A DNA stretch of 64,000 bases. Source: Kappaphycus alvarezii (Eukaryota > Rhodophyta > Florideophyceae > Gigartinales > Solieriaceae). The stretch's first letter is position 1. Each line of letters begins with the position of its first letter. Below, piece by piece: positions 4,820 through 60,664 of this stretch. The position numbers were made by a program, and so were the translations under genes. The DNA is taken from assembly GCA_002205965.3 (NCBI GenBank), contig NADL03000534.1:1612001-1676000 (forward strand). Reading direction: 5' to 3'. The notes under the pieces are model-generated. The model saw nothing but the letters and a program-made list of their open reading frames with translations, searched no databases and was not told the DNA's origin.

Positions 4820-5250
4820 CGCAAGAGAAGGCCTGGAAAATGTTGAAGGATGACTTAAGTAAGCCAGAGGTCTTAGGCGCCTATACGGGGAGCAAACAAA
4901 AGGGTGATGACAGACGCCAGCTCATACGGACTCGGTGGAGTTTTGCTTCAAGCCGATGAGACGGTCGATGGCGTCCCATCTCGTTCGCAGCAGAGCCCTT
5001 CGGAAATCGGAGAAAAACTATGCACCCACGGAGAAAGAGTGCTTGGCAATCGTGTACGCCTTACAAAAATGGCGGCATATCTGCATGGAGAATCTTTCAC
5101 GGTAGTTACAGACCATTTGTCACTGAAATGGTTGCTTAACCTTAAAGAGCCTCGGGAGAAGTTGGCCAGGTGGGTCATTGCAATTCAGGATTTTGACTTC
5201 AATATAGAGCACCGTAACGGACCAGAGCTAGTGTCCCAGACACCCTGAGC
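4820..5250 (+). pseudogene. gypsy RNase H remnant
   Basis: The frame at 4904-5248 begins with MMTDASSYGLGGVLLQ, the first RNase H aspartate strand. It continues through FTVVTDHLSLKWLLNLKEPR and ends at IEHRNGPELVSQTP, where intact relatives have HRxGxxNxxADxLSR. It follows RT directly, as in gypsy Pol. The enzyme would degrade the RNA strand of the hybrid. One internal frame disturbance appears in the middle (around 4975-5060). Confidence 0.85.
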
Positions 5251-5539
5251 CGGGACGCAGTCCCAAGCCCCTATGCCAGAGGTGCTACGGGGAAATTGAT
5301 TCCAAGAGTTTGGAGCGGGCTAGGGAGGAGGCAAAGAAGAAGCCATTTCGAGACTTGTAGAAGAACATCAGGCGAACACCAGAGCACGACCACGAAACGA
5401 TACCCGCCAGATAAACAGATTGCGGAGACGCAGATCGCAGAGTTTGGGGATCTGCAGGCCTACGCACGATCGCAGGATAAGTTCTTGGTGGATGAAGACG
5501 GGTTCTGCGATACTCCGGAAGAGATGAGCTTCCCATTGT

Positions 5540-24412: not shown

Positions 24413-25059
24413 TAGACAGGAGCAGGGAGGCGGAAAGACATGAAGGTTAACGTGTAAAGCGAAAATGTTACAGGGAAGGTGGAATGGGTTCGATAGACAG
24501 GGTTGAGGGGAGAGTTTTGAATTCAGTATTGCAGAGGCTCAGAGCGCTTTGCCCGTGTTTTCCTCCGTAACTCTATCGACCCACTTCGATGAAAGGAGCA
24601 CACTTCTGCTGCGTTTCGCATACGTCGCCAACTCATCCCATTCAACGAAACGCTGTGGGGACCGAAGAAGCTGTGCGTCTCTCACAATTTAACATCGCAC
24701 TGGTTCATATCTGCAATAGAGCCTGCGGTACCAGTAACGTCTGTTGAGAGAGCAAAGCACATGGTACCGTACTGTACTGTACAGTAATTGGCGCTCTATT
24801 GAGCATTTCCAGAATGTCCATACCTGAAACGTTGCCAGTGCATGAAATGCTTTTTGGAATTGAGACGAGGACCGGCACACAAAACATCATGTCATGTTGA
24901 CAGTTCCGGTCGACAGTACAGTACAGTACTGTACAGCACTTTATTCGGTACGTTACAATCACCGTACTGTAAAATCTCGAAATTTTTGGTCTGACCATAA
25001 CGGTCGTTATGAAATCAGTTGATGTGGTGAGAAATAGTGCACCATTCCTAAACATCGAG

Positions 25060-40500: not shown

Positions 40501-42035
40501 ATATCACCATACATGGTTTCATCAAATCACGGAAATGGAAAATTTGTTTCCAATTTCCCTCTAGTTAAAGTAAATTTTTTACTACTCTGCAAAAATTCAG
40601 TGGATTCCAGTTATAATTAAAATCATTTTAAATTATCTCACCAATATCTTGGGCAGTGTTTTTTTGGAATATTTGATGCTGTAACTTTCCATTATTTTAT
40701 TATTTTTTAATGTACGTTTGGAATTTCGAAAATCATTTATACCGTCTAATTACAATTTCTTATTGTGCGTTTTCATTGATACAAACGATAAGTAAAGAAC
40801 AATTCGCTTTCTTATTTGATTACAAAATCATCCACTACATTCTGAAATTAAAAAATGATGCTCAAAATCCCTTTACTCTTGAAAATGTGAAGCAACCCAT
40901 TTAATTGAAACCTTGAGTTGCTCTTCAGTGCAAGTTATTTTCTCATTAGGTGAAAATTTATTTACTTCTTCTCCTTGCTGTGAACGACGGTTCAAAATCG
41001 TAGCCAAGTAACTTCATTATTGCTTAAATGGGATAAAAAAACTAAGACAATATGCTGTGGGCTCTCACTAGTACACAAAATAAAGACAGTCAATGTGCTT
41101 TTTCCGTTGAACTAGCAATATCAGGCGCCACCTTTAGTAGCTATTTCATTTTTAGCTTTATATTTACAGATAAATTTCAGCCACCGTTCTGAGATCGCTC
41201 GACTCACTTTCCAGTTTCCCTCGTAGGGTATTTTCTGTACTTTTTTCGCGGAGTTCAGCAAAATTCTCTTGAAAATATGTAAATTGATTTTTTAACATAT
41301 CTTAGTTCTAAATTATATTCCTGTTAAACAGAGCCTTTTTCTATATATCGAGCTACATTTGCGATACTTAATGAGTTAGGCACAAGTCGACTCTATGTGA
41401 CTAAAATTTATTCTTGAGGAACCAACCTTGACCTCTCAATTTATTTGAGACAGATGTCTTGTATTTCTGAAACTTGAAGATAATTCAATTTTAGCTAAAA
41501 TTATCATTATATGAGTGAAATTACAGGCCATTTCAGGTTTTACATTACATTTAAGTACAAAAGACTGGCTCTTTACTTGTCTACGGAACCATCTGTGTGT
41601 CTTCTGAGTCTTCAGATGAGCTTTTTCGGTACATATTCTTCCTATTCCGGCATGAAGCGAGTTCCCATGTTCCTCTCTCACGCAGCACGGCCATTTCAGC
41701 GTTAAATACATTAATTTATTTATCGCTCTCGAGCGGCCTTAGCGTCATTCCCATGTATGGTTGATCTCCAAGGTAAACGGGCCTTCACATAGTAATAATT
41801 GCAGAAGTACTCGCGTACTTGGTGCTGGTTTGTATACCTGCGAGCTTCATTGAGGGATCACTCCATGAGTCGGCTTCTGGCTATAATTTGCTTCATTAAG
41901 GTCAACCACAGCTGAGTTGCCGTTATGTCCGTAATTATATTAATAACTTTTGATCGGGCTGTTAGATTCAATGTCTAATGATACGTGATCCAGTTCTAGT
42001 ATCGCGCTGTTGACTATTATTATTTTCCCCAGTTA
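34570..42035. other. AT-rich gene-poor region
   Basis: This stretch is clearly AT-richer than the rest, especially 35.2-41.4 kb, with many A/T runs and only short open frames. At 34.6-35.1 kb the minus strand may hold the Harbinger transposase N-terminus. From about 42.0 kb leftwards the RT and RNase H of the copia element that hosts the array are expected on the minus strand, but I could not find their motifs. A minus-strand frame at 41436-41711 (EEHGNSLHAGIGRICTEKAH) is unplaced. No RNA gene, array or other repeat was seen. Confidence 0.5.
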
Positions 42036-42675
42036 TTTGAATAGACATATACCTTTTGTGCTCTTTTGTAGGTGATAGGGTATCGTCTTTGTGTGAATAC
42101 CTATGAAACAAAAGTTCATTAAATCCCCTATTTCTGACATACTCAATAAGTCTTGTATTACGATCGAAAATATAGTTAAATTTCCAACAGAACCAATTAG
42201 AATCATGCTTCTTGTTCCACCATCAAGCTTCTTTCATTTTCCATCTGGTAATGTTACATAACCTTCACAATCGAATACTAGGAAGTTTTATTTGTTGTAT
42301 TTTGTAGTATTAAGCGCCTCAAAGGGTGCGTTGTTTTCTAATTGTTCTAGCCGGAACGAAATTTTGTATGTCAACTGCATTTAAAGCTGCTTCTTCCCAA
42401 CACTGGTTACTCAAGTTAGCATTTGACAGTATACATATCACACGCTCCATAATCGTTTATTTAAGTCTCTCCACCAGCCCATTACATTGACGGCTATGAG
42501 GATATGTAAGAGAATGGATGATTATTTTATCAGAAAGGAAGGGAGCTGCGGATTTGTTAAATTTCCGCTGCTATTTTCATTGTGTATTTTTAATAGCCGT
42601 TCCCTTTGTTGTGAAAACTCGATAGATTAATGCTTTAATTTCCCTAATGTTGTCCTTCTTTTGATTTAGAGTATT
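42036..42675 (-). pseudogene. copia integrase, C-terminal part (left side of split gene)
   Basis: Minus-strand reading starts exactly at the array edge with NTLNQKKDNIREIKALIYRV, then a decayed second catalytic motif region (KFNKSAAPFLSDK). It continues IIHSLTYPHSRQCNGLVERL (42,465-42,510), where intact copia integrases have the PHSPQQNGVAERxN motif with the third catalytic acid. Next follows MERVICILSNANLSNQCWEE and a later segment with FDRNTRLIEYVRNRGFNEL, the usual end of the core. The first part of the same integrase lies at the other side of the array, 60665-60860. Several stops show that the gene is also decayed independently of the insertion. Confidence 0.8.
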
Positions 42676-43716
42676 GAATTTAAAACAATAGAGAAAACAC
42701 ATAACACTTTATCAAAGCAAATAGCTAACAGCAACAGGGATAACTAAATAAGTACGCATTACAGCAAACAGGGATAACTTATGCAGCTTACTTGCTCCAG
42801 TAGTTGGGATTGATTTGAACCTTCGTGTTGAACGTTTGCTCGAGACAGAACTGGTGAAGGCAGGGTTAAAAATGCTTGATCACTCGAATCTCCGGATGCT
42901 GCTGTACAGCGGCTATGGGCGCGGGGCGCTTCTTCCGGGGATGGTACCCCAAAGGGGTGTAGTGTGACAGCTTCCGTTTGGTGCCAACCTTACTTGTCTT
43001 GAGTGCACGTACGCTGCCAGCAATGGCCGGCCTGGGGAGGCACACGTAGGCGAGAGGATATTCCGGCGAGAGGGCAGGTGAGCTGTGGACTGAGAAAAAT
43101 GACCGGGAGTAATGGAATGGTGGAATTGGATGAGGTGATCGGCGTGTCTCCCCAGACGCTGAGATCCTTGTCCGGTTCCATTCGTTCCATCATGCGTACG
43201 CTTGGGTAAACTCTTTAGATTTGGTGTGTTCGCGTCGCAAGAGTTGTAAGGAGAGTAGCGCGGTCATACGCCCGTGACCATTATGCGTGTTGATCCTCTG
43301 ACCAGAACCAAATCAAACTTCCACCGTTGCTGCGTTTGCGTGACACTTGAATCATAAAATCATAACATCATAAATCATCATAAATCAAGAACAAAAGACG
43401 GCTTGTGATTGGGCCATGAAGGATGAGTGGAGGGAGGGAGGCGGGAGAACAAGCGACGACTTGAGGGACCAGAAGTTGTGCCAAAGGTTTCCAAGTTGTC
43501 GGTTATATAGACCTGTCCGACGGGTTCTGATCGCACATCAAGTCCTTGAGCAACGGTAAGCTGCCAACGTGGCCATATCTCGAGTGGCTTACAGTCCGGC
43601 GGATGCAAATGCAACCGAGATGCAGACGTGACAGCGTGACTTGCTTCCAGTTGTGGATCACAGCCACGTCGAAGCCCCCTTATCATATTCACCCATCATT
43701 TTCCAATCATTCCACC
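42676..43716 (-). mobile_element. Short non-autonomous unit of the YR array
   Basis: It has the same ends as the full units: the first 272 bp of its 5' side (43445-43716) match the 5' region of every unit, and its last 23 bp (42676-42698) match their 3' end. The ~746 bp in between (42699-43444) are unrelated to the full unit and encode nothing recognisable. They contain a small direct repeat (acagcaa-cagggataact at about 42,729 and 42,761) and an AT-rich atcataa stretch near 43,350-43,385. ORF1 begins normally but runs into unrelated codons after about 80 residues. It looks like a deletion/replacement derivative mobilised by the full element. It could also be an unusual split 3' terminal repeat of the leftmost unit. 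Confidence 0.75.
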
Positions 43717-43739
43717 GAATTTAAAACAATAGAGAAAAC
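43717..43739 (-). repeat. 3'-terminal 23-bp element sequence at unit junction
   Basis: The plus-strand sequence gaatttaaaacaatagagaa plus aac marks the 3' end of unit 1. It recurs at 42676, 47964, 52205 and 56431, each time directly against the attccacc 5' end of the neighbouring unit, except at the outer left edge where it meets host DNA. This is the expected circle-junction or recombination site for the element's recombinase. Confidence 0.7.
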
Positions 43740-43773
43740 CAAATGTACCAGGTACGTGATAACGAGAGTGAGG

Positions 43774-45128
43774 TCACAGCAAGTGACCGAAGAAGAAGTA
43801 CGAATCATCACATTGCAACACCCGTGCATCCAAATAAGACTGGCGAAACGTCTGTCCAGCCGACCAGTCACCCCAAATCAAGATGCGATATTCTTGAACT
43901 CCAATGGCCGCACATTCCGAAGCAGCGCCCATCCTGAGCGAATGAGAGGTCCATGCGACTTGTGGAGGCGGAGAAACTTGAATACGTGTGAGACAGAACT
44001 TGAGCCATAATGTCATCGTCCGTGCGCTAGTGGACAAGCGCGTTCCCGGTAGGGCCCAATAGTATTTGCTACCCGAGCGATTGTTGCGGCGAATTGCATC
44101 ATACCGTTGTACCAAATCAATGACACTTGAGTCGAAGTTGGAATTGCGTGTGTAGGAGAGGGTGTGGGCCACGCGTTGTTGGTTTTTCCGGAGTGCGATG
44201 GCGATGTTGATTGCATCCCGAGCAACCGTAATGTTGCGTAGTTGTAATGAGACACCCGCTCTCCTCGTTCGAAGAACACGTAGCTGACCAAGACAGCGGA
44301 GGCGTTACGAAGAAATTCCAAGTCCGAATCTGCAGCAAGGATTGCAGCAGCGAATATCTTGCGAGCCACCGAGCTGGGCAATGCTCGTCGTTCCATTGTA
44401 CCTGCAGGATCCGTGGCCAACTTGCGATCACGGTCACTCTGTTGATAGGCATCAATTGCTAGCTGGATAAGAGGTGTAAGCACCAGGGAGCGACCAACCC
44501 GTGAGTGAGCTGTTGTGACGGCTGATAGATAGTTACGAACCGATGCCGCGCTAATGTTACCCTCGTTGTATAACCATCCCAGATAGCGGAGAATAGCACT
44601 TTCGTTCCCTGATAGTGGATCAATACCATCCTTAGAACAAAATAAATTCCATTTTTTCCATAAGATCTCATTCGAACGCCAAGTGTTTGGCGCCCTAGCC
44701 CTATGCATCAATTGCGCAATTACCCTTCCCCCATCCGTTCCACCATACCCAGCCGTAGAAAGAACAGACTGTTGCAGCGTGACAGCTAACGGGAGAGTGG
44801 CTGCTTCTTCTGCGAGATTTTCCAGACGGCGATTTTCCACGGAGGCGAAGGCATGGCTTCCGGAGCCCAGATCGGGGGCAGGTAGAGGTTGTCTGCGTCG
44901 AAAATGTGCGGTCGAGCAAAGCGGCGCAATTGCGTGTACCATTGCTGTGCGGGCCAATGCGGGGTGACCAGTATTCCCCGGGCTAGTTCCTGACAGATTT
45001 TCGCGACCACCAGCGGTATCAGTTTGAGCGGCGGGTTCCAAAAGTTGATGTCCGAGCGCCAATCTTGTTTCAAAGCGTCTATTCCTAGGGAGCCAGGACA
45101 CGCGAATTCGCTGTTGAAACGAGGGCAT
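43774..45128 (-). pseudogene. Unit 1 ORF3: tyrosine recombinase
   Basis: N-terminal SAM-like core-binding region: WNLFCSKDGIDPLSG, ILRYLGWLYNEGNISAASVR and NYLSAVTTAHSRVG (about 44,500-44,680). Catalytic domain: VSYVFFERGE with the probable first arginine, then AWTSHSLRMGAASECAAIGV holding the HxxR pair (about 43,925-43,960), WGDWSAGQTF with the tryptophan, and SYLD with the catalytic tyrosine (about 43,820-43,860). This enzyme replaces integrase and joins a circular cDNA to the target by site-specific recombination. In unit 1 an indel near 44,185-44,260 puts the C-terminal half in another frame. The start is uncertain, because the frame stays open upstream over ORF2. Confidence 0.85.
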
Positions 45129-46713
45129 ACCTTGTTCTGATTGTCCGCGAAGCGATCCACTGTAGGCGGGAAGTTCTGGAGGAGCGGCCGAATGGTGGTC
45201 GTATTGATTCTCCAGTCGTCCAACGTGTGCAATCTCGAGAGGCGGTCTGCGAAGCGATTGACCGCCGATGGTAAGTAGCGTGACTCGATCGAGATTCCTA
45301 AACGAGTCAACAAACGGTGTAACACTCGGAGTTCTTGCATCAACGGCCGAGATTTCGTAGTCATTGCGTTCAGAATGGACACCACGGCTTGGTTGTCCTC
45401 CCAGATCCGAAGGTGCGTGCCGGAGGCCAGCATCTTGGCGAACGACCGTATGTTGTCCGTTACTGCCCGGAGCTCGAGGAAGGTGATTGGCTTGACTCGG
45501 AGAAGGGGATCCCACAGGCCCCGTGCTTCCCAATCTCCCTGGACCCCTGGACGGAGGTCCGAACCCAGTGTTCCCCCTTGGCCTATTGACGTGGAGGCGT
45601 CGGAGTGTAACGCTAGTGTAGGGGATGGGGCTGACATGGGCCTCTCTGGCTTGTGAATGCTCAGATCCCGCCAGTGCTTGAGATCCCGGATTGCGGCGTG
45701 TAGTAGTCGAACGCGCTTGCCCGAGTTGGTCGTGTTCTTGAGAGAGTCGTACAGGGAACGAGTGTAGAACCGGGCGAGTGGCATTGCGAGGGAGCATGAT
45801 ATGGCCACTCCGGCGAAGTGGCGTAATAGTTGGACGTCGACTAGCCGGCGGTTCCGTCGGGCCTGGCGTAATAATTGCTGCGAGATGCCCCGCAGTTTTT
45901 CCATACGACGTGCTGAGACCCCAAAAACCATCCGAGTTGAGTCCAGGACAAACCCCAGGTGCTCTATGCGTTGCGAGCCCTCCAATTCCCCTTTTCTTCC
46001 TTGCGCAGAAGTCCACACGCCCGTAGAAGGCGATCGATTTGCAGATGGCTTTTCGGAGTCGTGACCGACGCCTTACTGCGACTAGGAAGTCGTCCATGTA
46101 CGGGTGGATTCGCAGTCTTAGATGCTGCCGAGCGTACTGGACCATAGGACGCATGAACTTGATAAAGTAGGCTGGAGAGAGCTTCCAACCAAAAGGTAAA
46201 GCGATGCATCGAAAATATCGATTGTCCACCTTGAACAGAAACCAATTGCGGATATCCGGGTGCAGTCGAAAGTGATGATATCCTTTTGCGATGTCGAACG
46301 AGAACATCCAGTCGTTCTGGTTGAGTTCTAGAGCAAATGCCTCTAGAGTTTCCATCTTGACGGGTATGTCCCGGAACAGGGTGGACTGTCGCGACAAGTT
46401 CACGACCAGGTTGCTTTTCGCCCGACACTGTCACAAAGGCATTCGAAATTGGGTAGCCTTGTTCGTGAAGGGCGAGAGCGGTAGCGGCCGGTACCTCTTC
46501 GTAAGTACGACGGTGTAGGGCATCTTTGATTGCGGTGTCGAAGAATTCCCGGTCGGAGGGGTCGACCGGAATCTGAGGGAGAACGAATTTCGTGTGGGAA
46601 AGGGAAGTAGTGAGGGGGGTTTCGTACACTCCGAAACGAAGCGCACGTAAAAGGAAGTTGGAGAATGAAGGGTTTTGGACCAGAAAGGAGCTGCGCGCTG
46701 AGTGTTGCGCCAT
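44786..46713 (-). pseudogene. Unit 1 ORF2: reverse transcriptase-RNase H
   Basis: The start MAQHSARSSFLVQNPSF is at 46,713. RT motifs: VNLSRQSTLFRDIPVKMETL, WMFSFDIAKGYHHFRLHPD (motif A aspartate), ALPFGWKLSPAYFIKF (motif B) and HPYMDDFLVAV (catalytic YMDD, about 46,090-46,120). RNase H: LHSDASTS, FLELRAVTDNIRSF, WEDNQAVVSILN and NRFADRLSRL. A conserved post-RNase H segment (WNPPLKLIPLVVAKICQELA, TPHWPAQQWY) precedes the stop after KKQPLSR. No methyltransferase domain follows, unlike DIRS1. Frame is lost near 46,410 and regained, and lost again near 45,535. The long open reading at 44013-46403 mixes true RT with shadow frame. Confidence 0.85.
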
Positions 46714-46758
46714 AGGACGTGAGTCATACCACAGAGAAAAGACGCGACGGCGGTCGCT

Positions 46759-47935
46759 TTACTTGCGATTCGGCTTGTCAGCGGCGGCGGGGTTCCTTTG
46801 AGCTCCTCGGTTGTTTTGACGACGACCTCCCGAAGCAGCTTGCTGCTTATTGAATTCCTTGGCGTAGGCTTGGGAGCGGAGCTCGGCAAACTTTTGCTTC
46901 GTCGAGCGGTAGAGCTCGGACGAATACGGGAAGTCGTCCTCGCGCAAATACTTCTGAAGCAGGATTGCTTCGGATTTTCCAGATTCGAGGGAGTCGGCGA
47001 AGAAGTCGACACGTTCGAGGACACGATTGTAAGAAGCGGAGAGGAAATGATGCAGCACGGAGAAGGCTTCAGTTGCCGCGTCGATGTCTTTTGCAACCAG
47101 GGCTTCCGTAACTTGATGGGCACAGGCGAGGGCGTTCTCGCAGTTATCCCCGATATTCCAAAGGACCTCAGCTTCCCACCCGTCCCTCTGGTCGGCAGAC
47201 TTGATCCTTCCGAAAAGTCCCTCCGGTTCCGGTATGAACCGATTCGCGGGAAACGGTGCGACAGTAGACGGCTTCCCGAACTTGTTGAGCTTACCGGTGG
47301 CGGCGTAAGCTCGTCGGGCGGCGAAGGCTTCCCCGACGTGTTCAGCGGTAGGTGGCGGCAGTGAAAACTGCAGTTGCCCCACTTTGAAGGCCTGCGGCGG
47401 CTGAGGGCTTGACAGGAAGATTTGACGTAGGCTCTGCGGCACCAGACGGCCCGGCGGCAGCAGCAGCAGAAGCGGCAGCAGCGGCGGGAGCACCATCCAG
47501 ACTCAGGCGTAAGGAGTTGACGATTTCGGAGAGCTTGCCTTCGATACCGGTAACTTTGTTTTCCAGCGTAAGGAGCCTGGAAGCGTCGGATTGTGCAGAA
47601 GAGGAAGAGTCGGCATGCGAATTGCGGGAGAATGTTGTTTTGTGTGTGAAGGTCGGCCTAGACGGTGATTCGTCCGGAGCTGGTTCGAGGGATGAGAACA
47701 AGCGACGACTTGAGGGACCAGAAGTTGTGCCAAAGGTTTCCAAGTTGTCGGTTATATAGACCTGTCCGACGGGTTCTGATCGCACATCAAGTCCTTGAGC
47801 AACGGTAGCTGCCAACGTGGCCATATCTCGAGTGGCTTACAGTCCGGCGGATGCAAATGCACCGAGATGCAGACGTGACAGCGTGACTTGCTTCCAGTTG
47901 TGGATCACAGCCACGTCGAAGCCCCCTTATCATAT
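46759..47935 (-). pseudogene. Unit 1 ORF1: gag-like protein
   Basis: The protein of roughly 395 residues begins near the unit's 5' end (MMGEYDKGLRRGCDPQ in other units). It passes VYITDNLETFGTTSGPSSRR and a coiled-coil-like LLTLENKVTGIEGKLSEIVN, then an alanine/glycine-rich linker. A helical capsid-like part follows (AEVLWNIGDNCENALACAHQ, LHHFLSASYNRVLERVDFFA, ILLQKYLREDDFPYSSELYR). It ends in a basic tail (GGRRQNNRGAQRNPAAADKP) instead of a zinc knuckle. It probably packages element RNA. In unit 1 a one-base loss at 47,805 and a short loss near 47,390 shift the frame. Confidence 0.75.
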
Positions 47936-48021
47936 TCACCCATCATTTTCCAATCATTCCACCGAATTTAAAACAATAGAGAAAACCAAATGTACCAGGG
48001 TACGTGATAACGAGAGTGAGG

Positions 48022-49375
48022 TCACAGCAAGTGACCGAAGAAGAAGTACGAATCATCACATTGCAACACCCGTGCATCCAAATAAGACTGGCGAAACGTC
48101 TGTCCAGCCGACCAGTCACCCCAAATCAAGATGCGATATTCTTGAACTCCAATGGCCGCACATTCCGAAGCAGCGCCCATCCTGAGCGAATGAGAGGTCC
48201 ATGCGACTTGTGGAGGCGGAGAAACTTGAATACGTGTGAGACAGAACTTGAGCCATAATGTCATCGTCCGTGCGCTAGTGGACAAGCGCGTTCCCGGTAG
48301 GGCCCAATAGTATTTGCTACCCGAGCGATTGTTGCGGCGAATTTCATCATACCGTTGTACCAAATCAATGACACTTGAGTCGAAGTTGGAATTGCGTGTG
48401 TAGGAGAGGGTGTGGGCCACGCGATGCTGGTTTTTCCGGTGCGATGGCGATGTTGATTGCATCCCGAGCAACCGTAATGTTGCGTAGTTGTAAAGAGACA
48501 CCCGCTTCTCCTCGTTCGAAGAACACGTAGCTGACCAAGACAGCGGAGGCGTTACGAAGAAATTCCAAGTCCGAATCTGCAGCAAGGATTGCAGCAGCGA
48601 ATATCTTGCGAGCCACCGAGCTGGGCAATGCTCGTCGTTCCATTGTACCTGCAGGATCCGTGGCCAACTTGCGATCACGGTCACTCTGTTGATAGGCATC
48701 AATTGCTAGCTGGATAAGAGGTGTAAGCACCAGGGAGCAACCAACCCGTGAGTGAGCTGTTGTGACGGCTGATAGATAGTTACGAACCGATGCCGCGCTA
48801 ATGTTACCCTCGTTGTATAACCATCCCAGATAGCGGAGAACAGCACTTTCGTTCCCTGATAGTGGATCAATACCATCCTTAGAACAAAATAAATTCCATT
48901 TTTTCCATAAGATCTCATTCGAACGCCGAGTGTTTGGCGCCCTAGCCCTATGCATCAATTGCGCAATTACCCTTCCCCCATCCGTTCCACCATACCCAGC
49001 CGTAGAAAGAACAGACTGTTGCAGCGTGACAGCTAACGGGAGAGTGGCTGCTTCTTTTGCGAGATTTTCCAGACGGCGATTTTCCACGGAGGCGAATGCA
49101 TGGCTTCCGGAGCCCAGATCGGGGGCAGGTAGAGGTTGTCTGCGTCGAAAATGTGCGGTCGAGCAAAGCGGCGCAATTGCGTGTACCATTGCTGTGCGGG
49201 CCAATGCGGGGTGACCAGTATTCCCCGGGCTAGTTCCTGACAGATTTTCGCGACCACCAGCGGTATCAGTTTGAGCGGCGGGTTCCAAAAGTTGATGTCC
49301 GAGCGCCAATCTTGTTTCAAAGCGTCTATTCCTAGGGAGCCAGGACACGCGAATTCGCTGTTGAAACGAGGGCAT
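48022..49375 (-). pseudogene. Unit 2 ORF3: tyrosine recombinase
   Basis: The core-binding region and first catalytic part are in one frame of 336 codons from 49,375. The C-terminal half, including SHSLRMGAASECAAIGVQEY and the QSYLD tyrosine motif, is intact in the frame ending at 48,022. A single frame difference around 48,430-48,440 (ttccggtgcg where unit 1 has ttccggagtgcg) separates them. This is the unit whose recombinase is closest to intact. Confidence 0.85.
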
Positions 49376-50949
49376 ACCTTGTTCTGATTGTCCGCGAAGC
49401 GATCCACTGTAGGCGGGAAGTTCTGGAGGAGCGGCGAATGGTGGTCTTATTGATTCTCCAGTCGTCCAACGTGTGCAATCTCGAGAGGCGGTCTGCGAAG
49501 CGATTGACCGCCGATGGTAAGTAGCGTGACTCGATCGAGATTCCTAAACGAGTCAAACGGTGTAACACTCGGATTTCTTGCATCAACGGCCGAGATTTCG
49601 TAGTCATTGCGTTCAGAATGGACACCACGGCTTGGTTGTCCTCCCAGATCCGAAGGTGCGTGCCGGAGGCCAGCATCTTGGCGAACGACCGTATGTTGTC
49701 CGTTACTGCCCGGAGCTCGAGGAAGGTGATTGGCTTGACTCGGAGAAGGGATCCACAGGCCCCATGCTTCCCAATCTCCTTGACCCCTGGGGAGGTCCGA
49801 ACCCAGTGTTCCCCTTGGCCTATTGACGTGGAGGCGTCGGAGTGTAACGCTAGTGTAGGGGATGGGGCTGACATGGGCCTCTCTGGCTTGTGAATGCTCA
49901 GATCCCGCCAGTGCTTGAGATCCCGGATTGCGGGTGTAGTAGTCGAACGCACTTGCCCGAGTTGGTCGTGTTCTTGAGAGAGTCGTACAGGGAACGAGTG
50001 TAGAACCGGGCGAGTGGCATTGCGAGGGAGCATGATATGGCCACTCCGGCGAAGTGGCGTAATAGTTGGACGTCGACTAGCCGGCGGTTCCGTCGGGCCT
50101 GGCGTAATAATTGCTGCGAGATGCCCCGCAGTTTTTCCATACGACGTGCTGAGACCCCAAAAACCATCCTAGTTGAGTCCAGGACAAACCCAGGTGCTCT
50201 GTGCGTTGCGAGCCCTCCCAATTCCCCTTTTCTTCCTTGCGCAAAAGTCCACACGCCCGTAGAAGGCGATCGATTTGCAGATGGGCTTTTCGGAGTCGTG
50301 ACCGACGCCTTACTGCGACTAGGAAGTCGTCCATGTACGGGTGGATTCGCAGTCTTAGATGCTGCCGAGCGTACTGGACCATAGGACGCATGAACTTGAT
50401 AAAGTAGGCTGGAGAGAGCTTCCAACCAAAAGGTAAAGCGATGCATCGAAAATATCGATTGTCCACCTTGAACAGAAACCAATTGCGGATATCCGGGTGC
50501 AGTCGAAAGTGATGATATCCTTTTGCGATGTCGAACGAGAACATCCAGTCGTTCTGAGTTTAGAGCAAATGCCTCTAGAGTTTCCATCTTGACGGGTATG
50601 TCCCGGAACAGGGTGGACTGTCGCGACAAGTTCACGACCAGCTGTTGCTTTTCGCCCGACACTGTCACAAGGCATTCGAATTGGTAGCCTTGTTCGTGAG
50701 GGCGAGAGCGGTAGCGGCCGGTACCTCTTCTAAGTACGACGGTGTAGGGCATCTTTGATTGCGGTGTCGAAGAATTCCCGAGGTCGGAGGGGTCGACCGG
50801 AATCTGAGGGAGAACGAATTTCGTGTGTGGGAAAGGGAAAGTAGTGAGGGGGGTTTCGTACACTCCGAAACGAAAGCGCACGTAAAAGGAAGTTGGAAGA
50901 ATGAAGGGTTTTGGACCAGAAAGGAGCTGCGCGCTGAGTGTTGCGCCAT
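49033..50949 (-). pseudogene. Unit 2 ORF2: reverse transcriptase-RNase H
   Basis: Same domain order as in unit 1, with SFDIAKGYHHFRLHPD, LPFGWKLSP and YMDDFLVAV intact in the frame 50077-50544 and the RNase H and KKQPLSR end in the frame 49033-49407. Frame is lost near 50,690-50,800 (N-terminus), 50,550 (a missing segment in the codons for LELNQNDW), 50,195, 49,795 and 49,430. It also lacks three bases (aac) at about 49,555 relative to unit 1. Confidence 0.85.
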
Positions 50950-50995
50950 AGGACGTGAGTCATACCACAGAGAAAAGACCACGACGGCGGTCGCT

Positions 50996-52187
50996 TTACT
51001 TGCGATTCGGCTTGTCAGCGTGCGGCGGGGCGGGGTCCTTTGAGCTCCTCGGTTGTTTTGACGACGACTCCCGAAAGCAGCTTGCTGCTTATTGAATTCC
51101 TTGGCGTAGGCTTGGGAGCGGAGCTCGGCAAACTTTTGCTTCGTCGAGCGGTAGAGCTCGGACGAATAGGGAAGTCGTCCTCGCGCAAATACTTCTGAAG
51201 CAGGATTGCTTCGGATTTTCCAGATTCGAGGGAGTCGGCGAAGAAGTCGACACGTTCGAGGACACGATTGTAAGAAGCGGAGAGGAAATGATGCAGCACG
51301 GAGAAGGCTTCAGTTGCCGCGTCGATGTCTTTTGCAACCAGGGCTTCCGTAACTTGATGGGCACAGGCGAGGGCGTTCTCGCAGTTATCCCCAATATTCC
51401 AAAGGACCTCAGCTTCCCACCCGTCCCTCTGGTCGGCAGACTTATCCTTCCGAAAAGTCCCTCCGGTTCCGGTATGAACCGATTCGCGGAAACGGTGCGA
51501 CAGTAGACGGCTTCCCGACTGTTGAGCTTACCGGTGGCGGCGTAAGCTCGTCGGGCGGCGAAGGTTCCCCGACGTGTTCAGCGGTAGGTGGCGGCAGTGA
51601 AAACTGCAGTTGCCCCACTTTGAAGGCCTCTGTGGCGGCTGAGGGCTTGACAGGAAGATTTGACGTAGGCTCTGCGGCACCAGACGGCCGGCGGCAGCAG
51701 CAGCAGAAGCGGCGCAGCGGCGGGAGCACCATATCCAGACTCAGGCGTAAGGAGGTTGACGATTTCGGAGAGCTTGCCTTCGATACCGGTAACTTTGTTT
51801 TCCAGCGTAAGGAGCCTGGAAGCGTCGGATTGTGCAGAAGAGAGAAGAGTCGGCATGCGAAATTGCGGGAGAATGTTGTTTGTGTGTGAAGGTCGGCCTA
51901 GACGGTGATTCGTCCGGAGCTGGTTCGAGGGATGAGAACAAGCGACGACTTGAGGGACCAGAAGTTGTGCCAAAGGTTTCCAAGTTGTCGGTTATATAGA
52001 CCTGTCCGACGGGTTCTGATCGCACATCAAGTCCTTGAGCAACGGTAAGCTGCCAACGTGGCCATATCTCGAGTGGCTTACAGTCCGGCGGATGCAAATG
52101 CAACCGAGATGCAGACGTGACAGCGTGACTTGCTTCCAGTTGTGGATCACAGCCACGTCGAAGCCCCTTATCATATTCACCCATCAT
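50996..52187 (-). pseudogene. Unit 2 ORF1: gag-like protein
   Basis: It starts MMGEYDKGLRRGCDPQ at 52,187, giving about 65 residues more at the N-terminus than the internal methionine, and the frame is continuous to the FTHK segment. Further indels around 51,860, 51,700, 51,530, 51,170 and 51,065 break it. The capsid-like and basic-tail segments are recognisable in separate frames. Confidence 0.7.
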
Positions 52188-52262
52188 TTTCCAATCATTC
52201 CACCGAATTTAAAACAATAGAGAAAACCAAATGTACCAGGGTACGTGATAACGAGAGTGAGG

Positions 52263-53616
52263 TCACAGCAAGTGACCGAAGAAGAAGTACGAATCATCAC
52301 ATTGCAACACCCGTGCATCCAAATAAGACTGGCGAAACGTCTGTCCAGCCGACCAGTCACCCAAATCAAGATGCGATATTCTTGAACTCCAATGGCCGCA
52401 CATTCCGAAGCAGCGCCCATCCTGAGCGAATGAGAGGTCCATGCGACTTGTGGAGGCGGAGAAACTTGAATACGTGTGAGACAGAACTTGAGCCATAATG
52501 TCATCGTCCGTGCGCTAGTGGACAAGCGCGTTCCCGGTAGGGCCCAATAGTATTTGCTACCCGAGCGATTGTTGCGGCGAATTGCATCATACCGTTGTAC
52601 CAAATCAATGACACTTGAGTCGAAGTTGGAATTGCGTGTGTAGGAGAGGGTGTGGGCCACGCGTGTTGGTTTTTCCGGAGTGCGATGGCGATGTTGATTG
52701 CATCCCGAGCAACCGTAATGTTGCGTAGTTGTAATGAGACACCCGCTTCTCCTCGTTCGAAGAACACGTAGCTGACCAAGACAGCGGAGGCGTTACGAAG
52801 AAATTCCAAGTCCGAATCTGCAGCAAGGATTGCAGCAGCGAATATCTTGCGAGCCACCGAGCTGGGCAATGCTCGTCGTTCCATTGTACCTGCAGGATCC
52901 GTGGCCAACTTGCGATCACGGTCACTCTGTTGATAGGCATCAATTGCTAGCTGGATAAGAGGTGTAAGCACCAGGGAGCGAACCAACCCGTGAGTGAGCT
53001 GTTGTGACGGCTGATAGATAGTTACGAACCGATGCCGCGCTAATGTTACCCTCGTTGTATAACCATCCCAGATAGCGGAGAATAGCACTTTCGTTCCCTG
53101 ATAGTGGATCAATACCATCCTTAGAACAAAATAAATTCCATTTTTCCATAAGATCTCATTCGAACGCCAAGTGTTTGGCGCCCTAGCCCTATGCATCAAT
53201 TGCGCAATTACCCTTCCCCCATCCGTTCCACCATACCCAGCCGTAGAAAGAACAGACTGTTGCAGCGTGACAGCTAACGGGAGAGTGGCTGCTTCTTCTG
53301 CGAGATTTTCCAGACGGCGATTTTCCACGGAGGCGAAGGCATGGCTTCCGGAGCCCAGATCGGGGGCAGGTAGAGGTTGTCTGCGTCGAAAATGTGCGGT
53401 CGAGCAAAGCGGCGCAATTGCGTGTACCATTGCTGTGCGGGCCAATGCGGGGTGACCAGTATTCCCCGGGCTAGTTCCTGACAGATTTTCGCGACCACCA
53501 GCGGTATCAGTTTGAGCGGCGGGTTCCAAAAGTTGATGTCCGAGCGCCAATCTTGTTTCAAAGCGTCTATTCCTAGGGAGCCAGGACACGCGAATTCGCT
53601 GTTGAAACGAGGGCAT
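52263..53616 (-). pseudogene. Unit 3 ORF3: tyrosine recombinase
   Basis: The core-binding region, FFERGE motif, HSLRMG pair and QSYLD tyrosine are all present. Frameshifts lie near 52,660 (cgcgtgttgg, one base short of unit 1), 52,980 (an extra a) and 53,142 (five instead of six T). A one-base loss near 52,360 (cacccaaatc) changes frame between the HSLRMG and tyrosine motifs. Confidence 0.85.
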
Positions 53617-55199
53617 ACCTTGTTCTGATTGTCCGCGAAGCGATCCACTGTAGGCGGGAAGTTCTGGAGGAGCGGCCGAATGGTGGTCGTATTGATTCTC
53701 CAGTCGTCCAACGTGTGCAATCTCGAGAGGCGGTCTGCGAAGCGATTGACCGCCGATGGTAAGTAGCGTGACTCGATCGAGATTCCTAAACGAGTCAACA
53801 AACGGTGTAACACTCGGAGTTCTTGCATCAACGGCCGAGATTTCGTAGTCATTGCGTTCAGAATGGACACCACGGCTTTTGTCCTCCCAGATCCGAAGGT
53901 GCGTGCCGGAGGCCAGCATCTTGGCGAACGACCGTATGTTGTCCGTTACTGCCCGGAGCTCGAGGAAGGTGATTGGCTTGACTCGGAGAAAGGGGATCAC
54001 AGGCCCGTGCTTCCCAATCTCCCTGGACCCCTGGACGGAGGTCCGAACCCAGTGTTCCCCTTGGCCTATTGACGTGGAGGCGTCGGAGTGTAACGCTAGT
54101 GTAGGGGATGGGGCTGACATGGGCCTCTCTGGCTTGTGAATGCTCAGATCCCGCCAGTGCTTGAGATCCCGGATTGCGGCGTGTAGTAGTCGAACGCGCT
54201 TGCCCGAGTTGGTCGTGTTCTTGAGAGAGTCGTACAGGGAACGAGTGTAGAACCGGGCGAGTGGCATTGCGAGGGAGCATGATATGGCCACTCCGGCGAA
54301 GTGGCGTAATAGTTGGACGTCGACTAGCCGGCGGTTCCGTCGGGCCTGGCGTAATAATTGCTGCGAGATGCCCCGCAGTTTTTCCATACGACGTGCTGAG
54401 ACCCCAAAAACCATCCGAGTTGAGTCCAGGACAAACCCCAGGTGCTCTATGCGTTGCGAGCCCTCCAATTCCCCTTTTCTTCCTTGCGCAGAAGTCCACA
54501 CGCCCGTAGAAGGCGATCGATTTGCAGACGGGCTTTTCGGAGTCGTGACCGACGCCTTACTGCGACTAGGAAGTCGTCCATGTACGGGTGGATTCGCAGT
54601 CTTAGATGCTGCCGAGCGTACTGGACCATAGGACGCATGAACTTGATAAAGTAGGCTGGAGAGAGCTTCCAACCAAAAGGTAAAGCGATGCATCGAAAAT
54701 ATCGATTGTCCACCTTGAACAGAAACCAATTGCGGATATCCGGGTGCAGTCGAAAGTGATGATATCCTTTTGCGATGTCGAACGAGAACATCCAGTCGTT
54801 CTGGTTGAGTTCTAGAGCAAATGCTCTAGAGTTTCCATCTTGACGGGTATGTCCCGGAACAGGGTGGACTGTCGCGACAAGTTCACGACCAGCCGTTGCT
54901 TTTCGCCCGACACTGTCACAAAGGCATTCGAAATTGGGTAGCCTTGTTCGTGAAGGGCGAGAGCGGTAGCGGCCGGTACTCTTCGTAAGTACGACGGTGT
55001 AGGGCATCTTTGATTGCGGTGTTCGAAGAATTCCGTCGCGGAGGGGTCGACCGGAATCTGAGGGAGAACGAATTTCGTGTGGGAAAGGGAAGTAGTGAGG
55101 GGGGTTTCGTACACTCCGAAACGAAGCGCACGTAAAAGGAAGTTGGAATAATGAAGGGTTTTGGACCAGAAAGGAGCTGCGCGCTGAGTGTTGCGCCAT
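53274..55199 (-). pseudogene. Unit 3 ORF2: reverse transcriptase-RNase H
   Basis: The RT core is intact in one long frame (ALELNQNDWMFSFDIAKGYH through YMDDFLVAV to about 54,450). The RNase H and the conserved NPPLKLIPLVVAKI segment are intact in 53274-53873, ending KKQPLSR. Frame is lost near 54,825 and 54,980 in the N-terminal part and around 53,875-54,060. The WEDNQAVV motif is hit by a small deletion at 53,878. Confidence 0.85.
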
Positions 55200-55242
55200 A
55201 GGACGTGAGTCATACCACAGAGAAAAGACCGACGGCGGTCGC

Positions 55243-56413
55243 TTACTTGCGATTCGGCTTGTCAGCGGCGGCGGGGTTCCTTTGAGCTCCTCGGTTGTTT
55301 TGACGACGACCTCCCGAAGCAGCTTGCTGCTTATTGAATTCCTTGGCGTAGGCTTGGGAGCGGAGCTCGGCAAACTTTTGCTTCGTCGAGCGGTAGAGCT
55401 CGGACGAATACGGGAAGTCGTCCTCGCGCAAATACTTCTGAAGCAGGATTGCTTCGGATTTTCCAGATTCGAGGGAGTCGGCGAAGAAGTCGACACGTTC
55501 GAGGACACGATTGTAAGAAGCGGAGAGGAAATGATGCAGCACGGAGAAGGCTTCAGTTGCCGCGTCGATGTCTTTTGCAACCAGGGCTTCCGTAACTTGA
55601 TGGGCACAGAGCGAGGGCGTTCTCGCAGTTATCCCGATATTCCAAAGGACCTCAGCTTCCCACCCGCCTCTGGGGCAGACTTGATCCTTCCGAAAAGTCC
55701 CGGTTCCGGTATGAACCGATTTCGCGGGAAACGGTGCGACAGTAGACGGTTCCAACTGTTGAGCTTACGGTGGCGGCGTAAGCTCGTCGGGGGCGAAGGT
55801 TCCGACGTGTTCAGCGGTAGGTGGCGGCAGTGAAAACTGCAGTTGCCCCACTTTGAAGGCCTCAGCGGCGGCTGAGGGCTTGACAGAAGATTTGACGTAG
55901 GCTCTGCGGCACCAGACGGGCGGCAGCAGCAGCGGAAGCGGCAGCAGCGGCGGAGCACCAGATCCAGACTCAGGCGTAAGGAGGTTGACGATTTCGGAGA
56001 GCTTGCCTTCGATACCGGTAACTTTGTTTTCCAGCGTAAGGAGCCTGGAAGCGTCGGATTGTGCAGAAGAGGAAGAGTCGGCATGCGAAATTGCGGAGAA
56101 TGTTGTTTTGTGTGTGAAGGTCGGCCTAGACGGTGATTCGTCCGGAGCTGGTTCGAGGGATGAGAACAAGCGACGACTTGAGGGACCAGAAGTTGTGCCA
56201 AAGGTTTCCAAGTTGTCGGTTATATAGACCTGTCCGACGGGTTCTGATCGCATCAAGTCCTTGAGCAACGGTAAGCTGCCAACGTGGCCATATCTCGAGT
56301 GGCTTACAGTCCGGCGGATGCAAATGCCACCGAGATGCAGACGTGACAGCGTGACTTGCTTCCAGTTGTGGATCACAGCCACGTCGAAGCCCCTTATCAT
56401 ATTCACCCATCAT
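55243..56413 (-). pseudogene. Unit 3 ORF1: gag-like protein
   Basis: The N-terminus starts MMGEYDKGLRRGCDPQ at 56,413. A loss of two bases at 56,250 (gatcgcatcaag for gatcgcacatcaag) shifts the frame. The coiled-coil and capsid-like parts are recognisable, and the C-terminal 170 codons (55243-55755) are open to the basic tail. Confidence 0.7.
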
Positions 56414-56489
56414 TTTCCAATCATTCCACCGAATTTAAAACAATAGAGAAAACCAAATGTACCAGGGGTACGTGATAACGAGAGTGAGG

Positions 56490-57826
56490 TCACAGCAAGT
56501 GACCGAAGAAGAAGTACGAATCATCACATTGCAACACCCGTGCATCCAATAAGACTGGCGAAACGTCTGTCCAGCCGACCAGTCACCCCAAATCAAGATG
56601 CGATATTCTTGAACTCCAATGGCCGCACATTCCGAAGCAGCGCATCCTGAGCGAATGAGAGGTCCATGCGACTTGTGGAGGCGGAGAAACTTGAATACGT
56701 GTGAGACAGAACTTGAGCCATAATGTCATCGTCCGTGCGCTAGTGGACAAGCGCGTTCCCGGTAGGGCCCAATAGTATTTGCTACCCGAGCGATTGTTGC
56801 GGCGAATTTCATATACCGTTGTACAAATCAATGACACTTGAGTCGAAGTTGGAATTGCGTGTGTAGGAGGGTGTGGGCCACGCGATGCTGGTTTTTCCGG
56901 ATTGCGATGGCGATGTTGATTGCATCCGAGCAACCGTAATGTTGCGTAGTTGTAAAGAGACCCGCTTCTCCTCGTTCGAAGAACACGTAGCTGACCAAGA
57001 CACGCGAGGCGTTACGAAGAAATTCCAAGTCCGAATCTGCAGCAAGGATTGCAGCAGCGAATATCTTGCGAGCCACCGAGCTGGGCAATGCTCGTCGTTC
57101 CATTGTACCTGCAGGATCCGTGGCCAACTTGCGATCACGGTCACTCTGTTGATAGGCATCAATTGCTAGCTGGATAAGAGGTGTAAGCACCAGGGAGCAA
57201 CCAACCCGTGAGTGAGCTGTTGTGACGGCTGATAGATAGTTACGAACCGATGCGCGCTAATGTTACCCTCGTTGTATAACCATCCCAGATAGCGGAGAAC
57301 AGCACTTTCGTTCCCTGATAGTGGATCAATACCATCCTTAGAACAAAATAAATTCCATTTTTCCATAAGATCTCATTCGAACGCCGAGTGTTTGGCGCCC
57401 TAGCCCTATGCATCAATTGCGCATTACCCTCCCCATCCGTTCCACCATACCCAGCCGTAGAAAAACAGACTGTTGCAGCGTGACAGCTAACGGGAGAGTG
57501 GCTGCTTCTTTGCGAGATTTCCAGACGGCGATTTTCCACGGAGGCGAATGCATGGCTTCCGGAGCCCAGATCGGGGGCAGGTAGAGGTTGTCTGCGTCGA
57601 AAATGTGCGGTCGAGCAAAGCGGCGCAATTGCTGTACCATTGCTGTGCGGGCCAATGCGGGGTGACCAGTATTCCCCGGGCTAGTTCCTGACAGATTTTC
57701 GCGACCACCAGCGGTATCAGTTTGAGCGGCGGGTTCCAAAAGTTGATGTCCGAGCGCCAATCTTGTTTCAAAGCGTCTATTCCTAGGGAGCCAGGACACG
57801 CGAATTCGCTGTTGAAACGAGGGCAT
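56490..57826 (-). pseudogene. Unit 4 ORF3: tyrosine recombinase
   Basis: All recombinase motifs are visible but spread over more frames than in the other units. Losses occur near 56,549, 56,642, 56,812, 56,825, 56,868, 56,926, 56,960, 57,254, 57,422-57,433 and 57,511, most of them single bases. The HSLRMG motif is followed by a loss of two bases (agcgcatcc for agcgcccatcc). Confidence 0.8.
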
Positions 57827-59406
57827 ACCTTGTTCTGATGTCCGCGAAGCGATCCACTGTAGGCGGAAGTTCTGGAGGAGCGGCCGAATGGTGGTCTTAT
57901 TGATTCTCCAGTCGTCCAACGTGTGCAATCTCGAGAGGCGGTCTGCGAAGCGATTGACCGCCGATGGTAAGTAGCGTGACTCGATCGAGATTCCTAAACG
58001 AGTCAACAAACGGTGTAACACTCGGATTTCTTGCATCAACGGCCGAGATTTCGTAGTCATTGCGTTCAGAATGGACACACGGCTTGGTTGTCCTCCAGAT
58101 CCGAAGGTGCGTGCCGGAGGCAGCATCTTGGCGAACGACGTATGTTGTCGTTACTGCCGGAGCTCGAGGAAGGTGAATTGGCTTGACTCGGAGAAGGGGA
58201 TCCCACAGGCCCCGTGCTTCCCAATCTCCCTGGACCCCTGGACGGAGGTCCGAACCCAGTGTTCCCCTTGGCCTATTGACGTGGAGGCGTCGGAGTGTAA
58301 CGCTAGTGTAGGGGATGGGGCTGACATGGGCCTCTCTGGCTTGTGAATGCTCAGATCCCGCCAGTGCTTGAGATCCCGGATTGCGGCGTGTAGTAGTCGA
58401 ACGCGCTTGCCCGAGTTGGTCGTGTTCTTGAGAGAGTCGTACAGGGAACGAGTGTAGAACCGGGCGAGTGGCATTGCGAGGGAGCATGATATGGCCACTC
58501 CGGCGAAGTGGCGTAATAGTTGGACGTCGACTAGCCGGCGGTTCCGTCGGGCCTGGCGTAATAATTGCTGCGAGATGCCCCGCAGTTTTTCCATACGACG
58601 TGCTGAGACCCCAAAAACCATCCGAGTTGAGTCCAGGACAAACCCCAGGTGCTCTATGCGTTGCGAGCCCTCCCAATTCCCCTTTTCTTCCTTGCGCAGA
58701 AGTCCACACGCCCGTAGAAGGCGATCGATTTGCAGACGGGCTTTTCGGAGTCGTGACCGACGCCTTACTGCGACTAGGAAGTCGTCCATGTACGGGTGGA
58801 TTCGCAGTCTTAGATGCTGCCGAGCGTACTGGACCATAGGACGCATGAACTTGATAAAGTAGGCTGGAGAGAGCTTCCAACCAAAAGGTAAAGCGATGCA
58901 TCGAAAATATCGATTGTCCACCTTGAACAGAAACCAATTGCGGATATCCGGGTGCAGTCGAAAGTGATGATATCCTTTTGCGATGTCGAACGAGAACATC
59001 CAGTCGTTCTGGTTGAGTTCTAGAGCAAATGCCTCTAGAGTTTCCATCTTGACGGGTATGTCCCGGAACAGGGTGGACTGTCGCGACAAGTTCACGACCA
59101 GCCGTTGCTTTTCGCCCGACACTGTCACAAAGGCATTCGAAATTGGGTAGCCTTGTTCGTGAAGGGCGAGAGCGGTAGCGGCCGGTACCTCTTCGTAAGT
59201 ACGACGGTGTAGGGCATCTTTGATTGCGGTGTCGAAGAATTCCCGGTCGGAGGGGTCGACCGGAATCTGAGGGAGAACGAATTTCGTGGGAAAGGGAAGT
59301 AGTGAGGGGGGTTTCGTACACTCCGAAACGAAGCGCACGTAAAAGGAAGTTGGAAGAATGAAGGGTTTTGGACCAGAAAGGAGCTGCGCGCTGAGTGTTG
59401 CGCCAT
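57487..59406 (-). pseudogene. Unit 4 ORF2: reverse transcriptase-RNase H
   Basis: This is the best-preserved RT of the array. One frame of 395 codons (58151-59338) runs from the N-terminal region (VLPQIPVDPSDREFFDTAIK) through SFDIAKGYHHFRLHPD, LPFGWKLSP, YMDDFLVAV and the thumb to the start of RNase H (LHSDAST). Frame is lost in the 58,070-58,190 cluster and again near 57,840-57,870. The conserved post-RNase H segment continues at 57487-57771. Confidence 0.85.
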
Positions 59407-59452
59407 AGGACGTGAGTCATACCACAGAGAAAAGACCGCGACGGCGGTCGCT

Positions 59453-60647
59453 TTACTTGCGATTCGGCTTGTCAGCGGCGGCGGGGTTCCTTTGAGCTCC
59501 TCGGTTGTTTTGACGACGACCTCCCGAAGCAGCTTGCTGCTTATTGAATTCCTTGGCGTAGGCTTGGGAGCGGAGCTCGGCAAACTTTTGCTTCGTCGAG
59601 CGGTAGAGCTCGGACGAATACGGGAAGTCGTCCTCGCGCAAATACTTCTGAAGCAGGATTGCTTCGGATTTTCCAGATTCGAGGGAGTCGGCGAAGAAGT
59701 CGACACGTTCGAGGACACGATTGTAAGAAGCGGAGAGGAAATGATGCAGCACGGAGAAGGCTTCAGTTGCCGCGTCGATGTCTTTTGCAACCAGGGCTTC
59801 CGTAACTTGATGGGCACAGGCGAGGGCGTTCTCGCAGGTATCCCCGATATTCCAAAGGACCTCAGCTTCCCACCCGTCCCTCTGGTCGGCAGACTTGATC
59901 CTTCCGAAAAGTCCCTCCGGTTCCGGTATGAACCGATTCGCGGGAAACGGTGCGACAGTAGACGGCTTCCCGAACTTGTTGAGCTTACCGGTGGCGGCGT
60001 AAGCTCGTCGGGCGGCGAAGGCTTCCCCGACGTGTTCAGCGGTAGGTGGCGGCAGTGAAAACTGCAGTTGCCCCACTTTGAAGGCCTCAGCGGCGGCTGA
60101 GGGCTTGACAGGAAGATTTGACGTAGGCTCTGCGGCACCAGACGGCCCGGCGGCAGCAGCAGCGAAAGCGGCAGCAGCAGCGAGAGCACCAGATCCAGAC
60201 TCAGGCGTAAGGAGGTTGACGATTTCGGAGAGCTTGCCTTCGATACCGGTAACTTTGTTTTCCAGCGTAAGGAGCCTGGAAGCGTCGGATTGTGCAGAAG
60301 AGGAAGAGTCGGCATGCGAACATTGCGGGAGAATGTTGTTTGTGTGTGAAGGTCGGCCTAGACGGTGATTCGTCCGGAGCTGGTTCGAGGGATGAGAACA
60401 AGCGACGACTTGAGGGACCAGAAGTTGTGCCAAAGGTTTCCAAGTTGTCGGTTATATAGACCTGTCCGACGGGTTCTGATCGCACATCAAGTCCTTGAGC
60501 AACGGTAAGCTGCCAACGTGGCCATATCTCGAGTGGCTTACAGTCCGGCGGATGCAAATGCAACCGAGATGCAGACGTGACAGCGTGACTTGCTTCCAGT
60601 TGTGGATCACAGCCACGTCGAAGCCCCTTATCATATTCACCCATCAT
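59453..60647 (-). pseudogene. Unit 4 ORF1: gag-like protein
   Basis: This is the best-preserved ORF1. From about 60,330 to 59,453 it is one frame carrying the coiled-coil motif, alanine-rich linker, capsid-like helices and basic tail. One frame difference near 60,330-60,345 separates it from the N-terminal part that starts MMGEYDKGLRRGCDPQ at 60,647. That N-terminal frame is also open upstream across the array edge into the copia sequence, back to an ATG at 60,836. Confidence 0.75.
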
Positions 60648-60664
60648 TTTCCAATCATTCCACC

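Follow-up and report, generated by a model that had tools for sequence, protein, structure and literature searches.

A Tandem Array of Coding Units in a PAT/TOC3-like Tyrosine Recombinase Retrotransposon of Kappaphycus alvarezii

The DNA analysed here is a 64,000-nucleotide stretch of the red alga Kappaphycus alvarezii (contig NADL03000534.1, positions 1,612,001 to 1,676,000; henceforth, the window). Between positions 42676 and 60664, it carries a tandem array of units of a tyrosine recombinase (YR) retrotransposon, set within a decayed copia-like element. The question raised by this locus is whether the array is a pile of separate insertions or a single element with a multiplied coding part. 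Judged by its sequence, the locus is one element, in which a unit with open reading frames (ORFs) flanked by the terminal repeats A and B (A-ORF-B) is present four times and a terminal A-X-B unit only once. Its parts are as follows.

56431..60664, minus strand: U4, ORF unit (A1-ORFs-B1), the 5'-most of the element, with the A1 repeat at 60394-60664
52205..56430, minus strand: U3, ORF unit
47964..52204, minus strand: U2, ORF unit, with a private haplotype in its 3' part that is common to U4
43717..47963, minus strand: U1, ORF unit, with the haplotype class of U3 in its 3' part
43445..43716, minus strand: A2, the 272-base repeat that opens the terminal A-X-B, directly after a B1 end; the single elements fetched have the same B1|A2 joint
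42699..43444, minus strand: X, between A2 and B2, one copy at the locus
42676..42698, minus strand: B2, the 23-base 3' end of the element, identical with the shared unit end

The units U1 to U4 and the short unit measure 4247, 4241, 4226, 4234, and 1041 bases, respectively. On the minus strand, all five start with GGTGGAATGATTGG and end with GTTTTAAATTC, with 0 bases between neighbours, and the outer edges of the array fall exactly at 42676 and 60664. The edges and unit lengths bear out the preliminary description of this DNA, which listed four units of about 4.24 kb and a short unit, head to tail and without a spacer. The short unit has about 272 bases in common with the long units at its 5' end and 23 at its 3' end; its middle part (about 746 bases) is unlike them. 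Among its five A repeats, the only substitution is one in U3, suggesting that the array is young. Short deletions within 43717-60664 cluster differently in each unit, which would fit incomplete polishing of the array.

Terminal structure and coding content of the family

An exact search of the 336-Mb genome for the A end finds 144 copies. The element census rests on the 100 copies that were listed, and the locus counts below refer to these. They form 26 pairs, three arrays, and 36 single A copies. The two A copies are spaced by 4.1 to 4.4 kb in 24 of the pairs and by 2.3 and 3.0 kb in the other two. Eighteen pairs were read nearly whole (18 of 20 fetched stretches, the remaining 2 representing contig C90) and the other 8 as 400-base stretches at both A copies.

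All 26 two-A loci show the same order: the chromosomal flank leads into A1 and the coding sequence, and a B1|A2 joint leads into X. The closing B2 is found in 17 of the 18 elements read nearly whole; the exception, L024, has no match to the B2 pattern, although nearly the full length of its A-X part can be matched. The single elements thus almost certainly follow the A1-ORFs-B1|A2-X-B2 plan of a YR retrotransposon of the PAT/TOC3 type, with split direct repeats. The short unit of the array is then most likely no odd extra copy but the ordinary 3' terminus, A2-X-B2, of such elements. The possibility that it is a separate nonautonomous copy was rejected, since single elements normally finish in A-X-B. 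No inverted ends of the DIRS1 type are seen, as the end GGTGGAATG is, by reading, no inverted copy of the end AAATTC, and there are no inverted repeat pairs of at least 150 bases within 38000-64000.

Six elements (L009, L012, L017, L020, L022, and L024) form subfamily III. Their ORF units are 70 to 73% identical to U1, and their A and X are 89 to 96% similar to those of the window family (three of the six were profiled). Compared in 40-base blocks, L012, L017, and L024 are about 90 to 100% like the window units in A and X and 40 to 88% past A, so that the terminal modules are common to elements of very different coding lineage.

The coding part of the units includes the following open stretches.

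58151..59416, minus strand: U4, open stretch with the reverse transcriptase (PF00078 in most of its 56 homologues with E ≤ 0.001)
44786..46072, minus strand: U1, open stretch with an RNase H-like part (by reading) and a weak match to the Dam methyltransferase domain (PF05869)
43774..44304, minus strand: U1, C-terminal part of the predicted tyrosine recombinase (motifs TSHSLRMGAA, WGDW, and SYLD), from its translation and an alignment of homologues

The reverse transcriptase is clear, with RVT_1 matches at E values of 1.5e-16 and 4.7e-18; PF00078 is found in 4 of 16 stretches scanned (E values from 2.1e-10 to 9.1e-19), the remaining stretches being other frames or parts. Both Dam matches (1.3e-4 and 2.7e-4) fall under the curated cut-off. 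For the recombinase, Pfam returns only weak SAM-like matches (E values of 0.17 and 0.057). However, 10 homologues were aligned, and in the 9 that extend over the C-terminal part, R and K of the catalytic set are invariant and the HxxR, W, and Y are kept in nearly all cases. The predicted structure of one homologue, P0059, which is 63% identical to the L018 copy, has a mean pLDDT of 79, and its best matches among solved structures are Cre and its variant Tre (E value of 2.9e-7, TM score of about 0.5). The conserved R, K, HxxR, W, and Y and the Cre-like predicted fold of the homologue support the presence of a tyrosine recombinase in the units. Together with the reverse transcriptase, they uphold the earlier assignment to YR retrotransposons.

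A pattern scan for the Gag zinc finger (three frames of 8 units, the frames being broken by indels) gave one match, in the A repeat of U1. Two frames of X have no Pfam match; in L018, X contains a 150-codon open stretch (4957-5409), also without a Pfam match, which may be due to chance. A reverse transcriptase scan of viral contigs and tRNA and Rfam scans gave no useful matches.

Insertion site and target preference

The array interrupts an older element, whose two parts are given here only over the stretch that matches its paralogue on contig C809.

60665..61810, minus strand: flank, first part (5' side) of the interrupted decayed copia-like element, ending in TGTGGATT (pieces 87% and 93% identical to C809)
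40516..42675, minus strand: flank, second part of that element, which resumes with AATACTCTAAAT (90% identical to C809)

A 1,201-base query over the left edge of the array gave 392 candidate matches in the alga's own genome. The 40 that were scored comprise the window itself, the flank paralogue on C809 (locus L002), and 38 matches covering the short-unit part only. The C809 paralogue is uninterrupted, is 89% identical to the joined flanks in an alignment of 3,169 columns, and is contiguous and without a difference at the joining point, over GAGTATT|AATCC. The joined flanks translate as YVWI/NTLN, and the open frame of C809 itself reads CVWINTLNQKK. As this paralogue runs through the joining point unbroken, nothing appears to have been duplicated or lost at the insertion (one paralogue, one site), in keeping with YR retrotransposons in general, which make no target-site duplication. 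The preliminary description had claimed a base-precise insertion, in the same frame and with no target-site duplication, and had pointed to uninterrupted copies as a check; the C809 copy, with no extra or missing base, confirms this. Retrotransposons with long terminal repeats (LTRs) insert with a target-site duplication.

The C809 alignment also agrees with the view of the two flanks as parts of one element. Their earlier label, a copia integrase, is only weakly backed: it comes from motif reading and a GAG-pre-integrase match in the C809 frame (PF13976, E value of 0.078) that lies under the cut-off, and comparison of this frame with solved structures gave no match.

Other insertions of the family suggest a TT^A target rule. 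Distinct 5' flanks end in TT in 31 of 31 cases among the loci read, with those ending like B1 left out as joints. Seven of 8 further 5' flanks do so as well (L092 ends in AT), some of these being in common with flanks already counted and thus not all independent. On the 3' side, A is the first base of 16 of 17 distinct flanks (all but that of C90), of 8 of the 9 solo 3' ends described below, and of 7 of 7 ends in subfamily II. The background frequency of TT is 8.8% of positions in the window flanks, counting both strands. The site in the window, GGATT^AATAC, fits the rule. The internal junctions of the array do not resemble such insertions: all four have the sequence AAATTC|GGTGG, as in a normal B1|A2 joint. 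This comparison of edges speaks against the unit junction as a built-in target, as proposed in the preliminary description.

Elsewhere in the window, an open stretch on the minus strand (23261-24538) carries an endonuclease/exonuclease/phosphatase domain (PF03372, E value of 6.8e-7) and probably belongs to a non-LTR retrotransposon.

Unit numbers and the origin of the array

Loci with 0, 1, 2, 3, and 4 ORF units number 9, 26, 1, 1, and 1, respectively. The arrays are C595 with two ORF units (3 A copies), C90 with three (4 A copies), and C530, the contig of the window, with four (5 A copies; C530:1654676-1672664). The 36 single A copies include 24 A2 copies at a B1 joint, with A1 not matched exactly, 2 A1 copies, 1 ambiguous case, and 9 solo A-X-B units. 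The solo units, which were read at both ends only, have the chromosome directly before A, X after it, and a B2-like 3' end in 9 of 9 cases, with the ends about 0.95 to 1.07 kb apart. They represent 8 distinct sites, because both solos on C378 have common flanks. With the junction pattern of the window subfamily, 28 exact joints are found at 23 loci, only 2 of which have more than one joint.

On each of the contigs C378 (L045 and L046) and C710 (L003 and L005), two copies about 15 kb apart have the same flank, which could reflect either a local duplication or an assembly repeat. Identical or almost identical 5' flanks also occur in L103 and L026 and in L094, L095, L056, and L017, on different contigs or twice on one, which indicates insertions in duplicated or repeated DNA.

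The array probably formed after insertion, by homologous recombination between A repeats. One PAT/TOC3-like element (A1-ORFs-B1|A2-X-B2) would have entered the decayed copia-like element at TT^A, without target duplication. The A-ORF-B unit would then have multiplied inside it by recombination between direct repeats, first A1 against A2 and later whole units, through either unequal exchange or break repair. A-X-B would stay single because it lies outside the repeated unit, and the reciprocal loss product would be a solo A-X-B, as seen at other insertions.

A-X-B is present exactly once at all loci whose 3' end was read, giving ORF-to-X ratios of 4:1 in the window, 3:1 in C90, and 2:1 in C595. 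These ratios bear on a second explanation, serial integration at the B|A junction of a resident copy or at its A end, either of whole circles or of 4.24-kb ORF-only circles without X. Whole circles carry X, so ORF units and X would rise together, and whole-circle nesting was rejected on this ground. The earlier proposal that later copies entered the unit junction is likewise disfavoured by the single X and the normal B1|A2 joints. A junction made by integration would, it is true, perfectly copy the circle joint, and subfamily III combines ORF units of a different lineage with similar A and X, as if such units were exchangeable. However, mixed subfamilies are found in none of the three arrays, and the units of C90 are closer to each other than independent arrivals should be. 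Over 3,051 columns, they show 0 to 5 substitutions among themselves and 48 to 89 from 10 other units of the subfamily. Serial integration thus seems quite unlikely. In a related, very unlikely scheme, A-X-B would be a resident docking module, at which X-less A-ORF-B circles are loaded and released, cassette-like, at B|A by the element's own recombinase. If true, the number of ORF units at a locus (none, one, or several) would reflect its state of loading, and one and the same module could serve ORF units from different lineages.

Two of the C90 units have no substitutions between them, the third is 5 off, and the A of the A-X-B is 3 to 4 off, so that the history of this array looks stepwise. 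The two units of C595 differ by 0 substitutions and 2 gap columns. In the window array, 2 substitutions separate U1 from U3 and 10 separate U2 from U4, with 11 to 15 between units of different classes. In the last 1.7 kb, U2 equals U4 (0 differences in 944 columns), and 10 sites shared by these two alternate with U1/U3. Random sequencing error was rejected as the source of these sites, as U2 and U4 match there exactly. The ten-site haplotype occurs in 0 of 24 other units (a C824 unit was dropped, as only 269 bases of it aligned), and a genome-wide search for the allele at unit position 2633 returns two copies, one in U2 and one in U4. This haplotype and the local relatedness of the units favour local copying with mixing; under recombination after insertion, duplication of a two-unit block and mixing of units might have produced the alternating 3' haplotypes of U4/U2 and U3/U1.

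The same pattern could be generated before integration, in a multimeric cDNA or circle that entered the site once. For example, a nascent strand at A1 might pair with A2, either on its own template RNA or on one packaged with it, so that the ORF unit is recopied into (A-ORF-B)n-A-X-B. With such a multimer, each array should have a single X and its outer edges should be clean, as is observed, and template alternation between two co-packaged RNAs would yield the a-b-a-b order of haplotypes. A study of tandem LTR retrotransposons in rice also argues for a single insertion rather than the joining of two independent elements (PMC11899658). However, the absence of the U2/U4 haplotype from the other units and the private allele would mean that the source is missing from the assembly, the history of C90 looks stepwise, and the solo units are not accounted for. 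This route is possible but unlikely.

Several observations weigh against recombination after insertion. Multi-unit loci are only three, and the solo A-X-B units could be primary insertions. Alleles of the ten sites also occur apart, with two in L028, three in the distant C55, and one in C598. The full agreement of U2 and U4 is confined to the 3' part, their 10 differences being those of the whole unit. From L010, the nearest other element, U2 and U4 are at distances of 15 and 13, and U1 and U3 at 2 and 4; in a looser comparison, with counts that lie partly in runs resembling misaligned indels, the substitutions are 3 (U1), 13 (U3), 39 (U2), and 17 (U4). Simple ageing would load all units alike, so that something further has to be assumed: a second source, conversion by a copy outside the sample, or reverse-transcription errors.

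Finally, 96 indel runs stand against 52 substitutions between the array units, an excess that fits a poorly polished long-read assembly, and the copy number of the array rests on this indel-rich sequence. The unit number could then be an artefact of a shorter array: the consensus is patchy, the array is 18 kb long, and the same-flank copies on C378 and C710 point to possible duplicated assembly paths. This is highly improbable, as each unit has an indel pattern of its own, unlike copy-paste duplicates, and arrays are present at two other loci with different flanks.

Comparison with known systems

Split direct repeats are known from PAT, Ngaro, and VIPER elements (PMC4157794, PMC6681497). The K. 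alvarezii family is similar to the PAT/TOC3 elements of the DIRS order (PMC4157794) in having a reverse transcriptase, a YR in the same direction and upstream of the internal repeats, and the A1-B1-A2-B2 order; its weak Dam-like methyltransferase match might be a further point in common. It differs in that A2 and B2 are separated by X, with about 746 bases, that the B end in common to the units has only about 23 bases, and that the ORF unit is repeated. The Gag zinc finger is lacking in TOC3, unlike Pat1 (PMC4157794); here, the frames are broken by indels.

The Ngaro elements of Cafeteria burkhardae also have split direct repeats and solo AB repeats, attributed to recombination between the 5' and 3' repeats, and include one case of two adjacent insertions (PMC8547959). 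They differ by name and coding order, and the word "tandem" is absent from the main text of that paper. Ngaro elements are without a methyltransferase domain, so that the Dam match, weak and under the cut-off as it is, would argue against assignment to Ngaro.

The TATE elements of trypanosomatids are YR retrotransposons found, as here, in tandem clusters; unlike here, these clusters lie in telomeric repeats, and the terminal repeats of TATE are hard to resolve (PMC6681497). A literature search for tandem or head-to-tail DIRS/TOC arrays, judged by titles and the starts of abstracts, yielded no useful report.

Tandem LTR retrotransposons with common internal LTRs are frequent in plants (PMC11899658), making tandem growth a less uncommon mode of retroelement amplification than the preliminary description supposed. 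Their origin is debated between illegitimate recombination and complex insertion, and the rice study leaves it undecided whether the tandem arises before or after insertion (PMC11899658). In the K. alvarezii family, the alternating haplotypes and single X might help in this respect, as local recombination, multimeric insertion, and circle loading make different predictions, and the TT^A rule is a lead on integration by these little-studied recombinases. The range from 0 to 4 coding units within one genome parallels, in a YR element with split direct repeats, the solo, complete, and tandem forms of LTR retrotransposons. The latter carry LTRs and an integrase (PMC11899658), in contrast to the split repeats and YR found here; next to the published parallels, this family combines such repeats and recombinase with a clear ladder of unit numbers.

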